64,000 nt of DNA from an uncultured Actinomycetes bacterium (GTDB lineage: Bacteria > Actinomycetota > Actinomycetes > Nanopelagicales > Nanopelagicaceae), in NCBI GenBank assembly GCA_903827945.1, contig CAIKKN010000003.1:1-64000 (forward strand), written 5' to 3'. The position numbers were made by a program, and so were the translations under genes. The notes below the pieces were generated by a model that saw nothing but the letters and a program-made list of their open reading frames with translations, did not search any database and was not told the DNA's origin. This document shows positions 27,409 to 28,246 of the stretch, piece by piece; position 1 is the first letter of the stretch, and each line of letters opens with the position of its first letter.

Positions 27409-27449
27409 AATTAATTAAGTTGCGCGGTTCAATCCTCGCCCCGTACCCT
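27409..27449 (+). promoter_or_regulatory. Probable WhiB7-type promoter
   Basis: An AT-only block AATTAATTAA (27409-27418) lies directly upstream of a TTGCGC -35 element (27420-27425), followed by TACCCT (27444-27449) at 18-bp spacing. Known WhiB7-dependent promoters carry an AT-rich block just upstream of the -35 box, which the WhiB7 AT-hook contacts; autoregulation of whiB7 would fit. Confidence 0.55.
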
Positions 27450-27506
27450 TGGCACTTCACGGCAACCGCTGTGAGGCTTTCAGAGAAATCCAGAAGGGAG
27501 TGGCAA

Positions 27507-27677
27507 ATGTTGGATTCAACACTTGTTACGACTTCTAGTGCTTTGCAATCAGGCGCAGCTACAACTGCGTCACTCTGGCATGCCACAACAACAACCGCAG
27601 CTAACGCCTATGCGTTTACAGCAGCCTTCGCCAATCATAAGTATGCGAAGAGCGGAACCTGGGGGATTATCGGCTAA
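27507..27677 (+). CDS. Upstream ORF in the whiB7 leader (56 aa)
   Basis: The ATG is preceded by AGAAGGGAG (27492-27500), a strong ribosome binding site. The 56-residue product is dominated by Ala, Thr and Ser with a few aromatic residues and has no recognisable domain; it could be a leader peptide. Its stop codon lies in the loop of a 6-bp hairpin (TATCGG 27668-27673 with CCGATA 27678-27683), and a terminator follows 19 bp later, before whiB7. In mycobacteria and streptomycetes whiB7/wblC is controlled by a translated uORF and conditional termination; the arrangement here looks the same. Confidence 0.65.
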   Translation: MLDSTLVTTSSALQSGAATTASLWHATTTTAANAYAFTAAFANHKYAKSGTWGIIG

Positions 27678-27695
27678 CCGATAAAAGTCCACACC

Positions 27696-27735
27696 AGGGC
27701 CGCTCATCCAAACGGATGGCGGTCCTTTTTCTTTT
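27696..27735 (+). terminator. Attenuator-like terminator in the whiB7 leader
   Basis: AGGGCCGC-T-CATCC (27696-27709) pairs with GGATGGCGGTCCT (27714-27726) as a 13-bp stem with one bulged T and an AAAC loop, followed by TTTTTCTTTT. It lies between the uORF stop (27677) and the whiB7 start. CCTGG (658-662 of the 27-kb block) just before the uORF stop is complementary to CCAGG at 27694-27698, which could compete with the base of the terminator stem. Confidence 0.75.
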
Positions 27736-27802
27736 CCAGAAGGAAAATAAATAAAACCAGATCAATAATCAATAGAAATCAAGTAGAGAGGAAGTGAGAA
27801 CA

Positions 27803-28246
27803 ATGGGAGTTCTCCTGAGTGAGCTATTAGTCCCAGGGTGGGCTGATAGCGGCATAGTAAGTAGTTCTAGTAGTTCTAGTAGTTCTGGCAGTTCTAGCAG
27901 TTCTGGCGCCGGAGTGATGATTGGCCTGCGCGAAGTGACCTGCCTTGAAGGTGAAGTGAATGCGATGAGCTTGCCTTGTCACAGCGCTGATCCTGAAATC
28001 TTTTTCGCCGAAGATTTGGAAACGATCGCGCGCGCGAAGAGGGCTTGTGGCGCATGTCCAATGGCGAGGGCATGCCTTGAAGGTGCTCTCTCTCGCAGTG
28101 AACCGTGTGGAGTATGGGGCGGTCAATTATTCGACAATGGTCGGGTTATAAGTCAAAAGCGAGGAGTTGGGCGACCACGACTTACACTCGAAACTCAATT
28201 GGACATTAATTCAGAGGCTGAGTTGATGGACGAACGCGTTGCTTGA
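27803..28246 (+). CDS. whiB7: WhiB7-type iron-sulfur transcription regulator
   Basis: The core matches mycobacterial WhiB7 closely: LPCHSADPEIFFAED, then CGACPMARAC, GVWGGQLFD and an AT-hook KRGVGRPR. Cluster cysteines are C59, C82, C85 and C91 counted from the ATG at 27803. WhiB7 binds sigma A and switches on intrinsic antibiotic resistance. At 147 aa it is longer than the roughly 90-aa mycobacterial protein: the N-terminus contains a 16-residue Ser/Gly tract made by a 9-bp DNA repeat. The site GAGAGGAA supports starts at GTG 27794 or ATG 27803, but ATG 27917 or 27965 would give a normal-length protein. The end overlaps the opposite gene by 36 bp. Confidence 0.9.
   Translation: MGVLLSELLVPGWADSGIVSSSSSSSSSGSSSSSGAGVMIGLREVTCLEGEVNAMSLPCHSADPEIFFAEDLETIARAKRACGACPMARACLEGALSRSEPCGVWGGQLFDNGRVISQKRGVGRPRLTLETQLDINSEAELMDERVA
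27860..27907 (+). repeat. 9-bp tandem repeat coding a Ser tract in WhiB7
   Basis: Units AGTAGTTCT, AGTAGTTCT, AGTAGTTCT, then GGCAGTTCT, AGCAGTTCT and GGC. They are in frame with whiB7 and encode nine Ser, Gly, five Ser, Gly. Confidence 0.9.

Follow-up and report, generated by a model that had tools for sequence, protein, structure and literature searches.

A probable ribosome-controlled attenuator of whiB7 in an actinobacterium of the family Nanopelagicaceae

Introduction

Does a very reduced, free-living actinobacterial lineage, common in lakes, retain the translation-stress switch of whiB7? Actinobacterial whiB7 genes typically possess a long leader with a uORF and an attenuator, and stalling leads to an antiterminator built from overlapping uORF and terminator sequences (PMC10727445). 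Attenuation of whiB7 has been demonstrated in two mycobacteria (PMC4128351), and the leader mechanism has been described for actinobacterial whiB7/wblC (PMC10727445, PMC9618640, PMC13393426, PMC4128351). A search of the open literature, which leaves out most subscription papers, gave no publication that connects whiB7 leaders to Nanopelagicales. The locus considered here lies in the window, i.e. the whole 64,000-nt stretch of DNA analysed, which is contig 3 in a genome of 1.5 Mb and 34 contigs. A sequence-only reading had proposed an attenuator-type leader at this position, with the whole logic retained if the window came from a streamlined lineage. Following computational analysis of the leader and its relatives, we consider it very probable that ribosomes control whiB7 transcription by attenuation at this locus, in a member of the Nanopelagicaceae, and that WhiB7 boosts its own promoter.

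Results

The gene downstream of the leader had been read as whiB7, and this assignment was borne out by its translation. The protein contains a Whib domain (PF02467, 56.5 bits against a Pfam cut-off of 23.6), the four-cysteine set, and EPCGVWGG; the best structure match is M. tuberculosis WhiB7 (PDB 7kif, E 1.4e-21), with WhiB1 at 3.4e-9. Judged from its sequence, the gene is a true whiB7, nearer to WhiB7 than to any other Wbl protein, and a search of NCBIfam returned no family above threshold for the protein. The C-terminal AT-hook, RGVGRPR, is a variant of RPRGRPR. Translation was assigned to start at ATG 27803 rather than at the mechanical GTG 27794, because the N-terminus M[G/S/T/A]VL[L/F]S[E/D]LLVPGWA is conserved in about 25 relatives. 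The gene order is nudC (NAD diphosphatase), a UvrD-type helicase, the leader, and whiB7; mycobacterial whiB7 likewise adjoins uvrD2 and nudC.

The other parts named in the sequence-only reading are all present in the window (Table 1): an AT-only block beside a -35 box, a 56-codon ORF with its own strong ribosome binding site, a hairpin with the uORF stop codon in its loop, and a 13-bp terminator with a T-run.

Table 1. Features of the leader and of whiB7 in the window
Feature	Position	Strand	Basis or remark
AT-only block AATTAATTAA, predicted WhiB7 AT-hook contact	27409..27418	+	directly 5' of -35; kept in nearly all relatives
-35 element TTGCGC	27420..27425	+	sequence and family conservation
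-10 element TACCCT	27444..27449	+	18-nt spacer after -35
Ribosome binding site of uORF, AAGGGAG	27494..27500	+	ends 6 nt before ATG
uORF, 56 codons, MLDSTLVTTSSALQSGAATTASLWHATTTTAANAYAFTAAFANHKYAKSGTWGIIG	27507..27677	+	ATG 27507, TAA 27675-27677
Attenuator segment 1, AGCGG-AA-CCTGG, last uORF codons (S-G-T-W), antiterminator 5' side	27651..27662	+	folding, recoding
Stop-codon hairpin TTATCGG-[CTAA]-CCGATAA, apical part of antiterminator	27667..27684	+	sequence, folding, relatives
Attenuator segment 2, CCAGG-G-CCGCT, antiterminator 3' side, overlaps terminator 5' arm	27694..27704	+	folding, pair counts
Intrinsic terminator hairpin AGGGCCGC.CATCC-AAAC-GGATG.GCGGTCCT, segments 2 and 3	27696..27726	+	13 pairs, -22.4 kcal/mol
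U-tract TTTTTCTTTT	27726..27735	+	sequence
Probable whiB7 ribosome binding site, GGAAGTGAG	27790..27798	+	conserved E-V-R-x reading directly 5' of start in relatives
whiB7, 147 codons, Whib domain, EPCGVWGG turn, variant AT-hook RGVGRPR	27803..28246	+	Pfam, PDB, conservation

Alignment of relatives revealed that the promoter AATTAATTARGTTGC-N20-TACCCT is almost invariant across the family. A strict pattern derived for this promoter identified the whiB7 promoter in almost every genome with a contig reaching that far, and gave few other matches. By analogy with studied leaders, transcription is predicted to start near 27456. Generic promoter and terminator scanners by themselves did not place the leader region above chance, and the case for the leader therefore rests on conservation.

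The uORF was compared among relatives with its last 13 codons excluded, i.e. outside the pairing region, and pN was lower than pS in each of the 12 pairs compared (0.11 versus 0.27 for the nearest relative). The substitution pattern indicates that the peptide is under purifying selection outside the pairing region and, in combination with the ribosome binding site, predicts that the uORF is translated in the leader. The uORFs of the family are composed of 20.8% Ala, 14.8% Thr, and 12.6% Ser, two- to threefold above three neighbouring proteins, and no Pfam family matched the peptide of the window. The C-terminus, TWxxIG-stop, is strongly conserved among Nanopelagicaceae. This conservation is for the most part a by-product of RNA pairing, because the codon before TGG varies between ACC, TCC, and GCC in relatives, such that the residue changes while the pairing bases stay.

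Within the leader RNA, segment 1 base-pairs with segment 2, and the stop-codon hairpin is nested inside. The resulting antiterminator, which competes with the terminator and is composed of the uORF 3' end and the terminator 5' arm, is the part that the sequence-only reading had missed. Because the terminator takes its lower 5' arm from segment 2, the two structures are mutually exclusive at the shared stem. In relatives, the antiterminator runs on through TATGGA (Tyr-Gly) to ATCCA of the terminator upper arm. Folding of the leader gave a z of -6.0 versus dinucleotide shuffles, with the antiterminator as the minimum-energy form. RNAalifold recovered the terminator alone from the family alignment, because the linker 5' of the terminator differs in length; the antiterminator was assessed by folding leaders singly, by recoding, and on an alignment from which the linker had been removed.

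The contribution of codon choice was evaluated by synonymously recoding the last 12 uORF codons 1000 times. The nascent antiterminator of the window (-33.8 kcal/mol, versus a mean of -18.9 for the recodings; z -3.8) is more stable than 99.9% of these alternatives, and 23 of the 24 leaders fall at or below the 3% tail of their recodings, with a mean z of -3.2. Codon choice at the uORF end favours antiterminator pairing. Covariation is modest, because the core pairs hardly vary within the genus. The terminator is 97% paired, with 3 double-sided changes compared to 0.3 in shuffles. The central antiterminator stem, counted over the family and other Actinomycetes, is 82% paired with 7 double-sided changes compared to 1.8 in shuffles; registers for the other families were picked partly by fit, and these pair counts are therefore weaker evidence than synonymous recoding. 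When the partner was slid along, antiterminator pairing reached at most 55%, and double-sided changes alone did not separate the true register from every slid version. The sequence-only reading had proposed alignment with related genomes as one check; the outcome is modest covariation of the stems together with a codon bias towards pairing.

To mimic a terminating ribosome, bases up to 12 nt beyond the stop codon were blocked during folding. Under this constraint, each of the 21 leaders folded makes the full terminator. When the RNA is left free, 15 of the 21 prefer the antiterminator state, the gain being 0.7 kcal/mol for the window and as much as 8.3 kcal/mol for relatives; the terminator is favoured in the other six, all of them relatives, by 0.7 to 5.2 kcal/mol. 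Given that the two states are almost equal in the window (-0.7 kcal/mol) and that these six relatives favour the terminator, switching would depend on folding order. Computation establishes the parts of the leader, their conservation, their mutual exclusion, and the bias of codons towards pairing.

The same leader layout occurs in 24 relatives. Conservation of the uORF, stop hairpin, and terminator in related genomes was a point on which the sequence-only reading had staked its case, and all three are kept throughout Nanopelagicaceae wherever the contig reaches. A model built on the 3' portion of the leader matches the window at 91 bits and E 5.7e-22 (the window being among the model-building sequences), and matches whiB7 leaders in 30 Nanopelagicaceae genomes from five genera with E 2e-8 or better; across 23 other families, it matched no whiB7 leader. 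Strict and lax searches of Rfam 15 yielded no matching family. Weak matches of the leader model elsewhere in the genomes were, among those checked, ordinary gene-end terminators (of rplL-, glnA-, and lexA-like genes).

Discussion

The shared layout in 24 relatives, the recoding results, selection on the uORF, compensatory changes, and promoter conservation together support the reading of the leader as an attenuator. Transcription start, actual termination, stalling, induction, and autoactivation are modelled on the studied relatives, and the following sequence of events is proposed on that analogy. Transcription would begin at the AT-block promoter, probably activated by WhiB7 itself. Ribosomes translating the uORF to its stop would cover segment 1, such that the antiterminator could not form, and segments 2 and 3 would then make the terminator, leaving whiB7 off. 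A ribosome-targeting drug or a shortage of charged tRNA would hold ribosomes in earlier uORF codons, and the freed segment 1 would pair with segment 2, with the stop-codon hairpin at the tip. The terminator would thereby be blocked, RNA polymerase would read into whiB7, and WhiB7 would raise the activity of its own promoter. In this organism, induction by ribosome-targeting drugs or amino-acid starvation would be expected on the same basis.

Comparison with known leaders places the locus close to the mycobacterial arrangement. In M. abscessus, the WhiB7 motif is an AT-rich sequence 3 bp 5' of the -35 element (PMC10727445), and the mycobacterial whiB7 leader (M. tuberculosis, M. bovis, M. marinum, M. 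abscessus; PMC4128351, PMC10727445) resembles that of the window in this AT block 3 bp 5' of -35, in its length, in its uORF with a Shine-Dalgarno sequence, in the terminator behind the uORF, and in an antiterminator that shares uORF and terminator bases. The distance from transcription start to gene is about 350 nt in mycobacteria and about 347 nt (predicted) in the window, whereas the uORF peptide and stem sequences differ. In S. coelicolor wblC, according to papers that cite Lee, Lee and Roe (2022, doi 10.1111/mmi.14834), uORF translation leads to the terminator and stalled translation to the antiterminator, like the logic proposed here. Leaders in other families of Actinomycetes (loci L074-L093) similarly have a uORF stop some 20-40 nt before the terminator arm and, by folding, a stop-codon hairpin and a uORF end complementary to the terminator arm GGCCGCGG. 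Their stems are GC-rich (e.g. CTGGAG/CTCCAG and TTCCGC/GCGGAA), compared to CCTGG/CCAGG and GCGG/CCGC in Nanopelagicaceae, and their uORFs often end in WSPPV, PPD, or PPL rather than TWxxIG. The sequence-only reading had set the leader apart from other whiB7 leaders by both its peptide and its stop hairpin; the former distinction stands, but the latter falls, as analogous hairpins occur in other Actinomycetes. On sequence grounds, the leader represents a known device in well-preserved form, and what is new is the lineage, not the device. All elements named in the earlier reading, together with the competing antiterminator, are present, and the layout recurs in 24 relatives, in line with its suggestion that a streamlined lineage has kept the whole logic.

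Other interpretations of the same elements were also weighed. The ORF could be a small conserved protein gene that makes a functional peptide, followed by a plain intrinsic terminator that ends its transcript, with whiB7 served by its own promoter. Selection at the amino-acid level and the good ribosome binding site of the uORF would suit such an arrangement; however, it does not sit well with a codon choice at the uORF end that is tuned for pairing to the terminator arm, with residues that change before TGG while the pairing bases stay, with a peptide lacking a Pfam family, or with a strict AT-block promoter found solely 5' of the uORF, and we regard it as highly improbable. It is similarly far-fetched that the conserved TWxxIG-stop is an arrest peptide that itself stalls the ribosome. 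Although these residues are strongly conserved in the family, their conservation falls where the RNA pairs and extends to the bases themselves, the uORFs of other families have other endings although the register is the same, and a stall at the uORF end would favour termination, not read-through.

Within the attenuator reading, the inducer may be a drug or an amino-acid shortage. The leader might be mainly an amino-acid attenuator that senses charged Ala, Thr, or Ser tRNA, with the drug response secondary in this lineage, as would fit the enrichment of these residues over neighbouring proteins and the response of mycobacterial whiB7 to alanine starvation (cited in PMC10727445). We consider this unlikely: the Ala and Thr runs differ in position between uORFs, their skewed composition may instead keep the RNA poorly structured or make the leader generally sensitive, and any stall would act alike. 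With respect to the regulon, which comprises dozens of genes in mycobacteria, the strict promoter pattern found none in the lineage of the window, and in the genomes scanned it revealed no conserved promoter besides that of whiB7, although it is too strict to exclude a regulon. The remaining matches to strict and relaxed patterns are mostly inside or antisense to coding genes, looser sites are indistinguishable from chance, and hflX has no AT block upstream. One tentative and rather doubtful scenario is that Nanopelagicaceae, being streamlined, have lost most of the antibiotic regulon but kept the attenuator. The targets of WhiB7 may then be few, perhaps its own gene alone or a small group of starvation genes, and the uORF, rich in Ala, Thr, and Ser, would act as a sensor of general translation stress rather than of drugs.

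Retention of the switch nearly base for base in such a lineage opens the question of what purpose whiB7 serves beyond pathogens and antibiotic producers. In addition, the family-wide alignment offers a clean model for separating the bases that serve RNA pairing from those that serve the peptide.

Several minor observations concern the protein and the other uORFs. Five 9-base repeats AGTAGTTCT at window positions 27860-27904 encode a stretch of serines in the WhiB7 N-terminal linker, at which position relatives have Ser/Gln linkers of other lengths, or none. The residue before GVWGG is mostly Cys, and also Ala or Val, in Nanopelagicaceae WhiB7; Trp occupies this position in mycobacterial and other class members and is retained in a few Nanopelagicaceae relatives. 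The AT-hook of Nanopelagicaceae WhiB7 is without the first RPR. Among the other Actinomycetes, the uORFs of L076, L083, L088, L090, L091, and L093 carry Pro-Pro (or His-Pro) plus Val, Leu, or Asp directly before the stop. Such endings belong to a motif class known for slow translation, but their presence may be due just to the stop hairpin and its CCGG stem.

Two further observations relate to the assemblies. Two lexA-like gene ends, almost identical and sharing one terminator sequence, occur on separate contigs of the genome that contains the window (L142, G000:C30:19734-19818; L143, G000:C2:1945-2029); one of the lexA-like copies is apparently frame-disrupted, and the pair may represent a strain mixture in the assembly. 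In many metagenome assemblies (G001, G006, G007, G009, G020, G021, G023, G024, G029), contigs stop a few hundred bases or less from the whiB7 leader, and these breaks are perhaps caused by conservation of the leader among co-occurring species.
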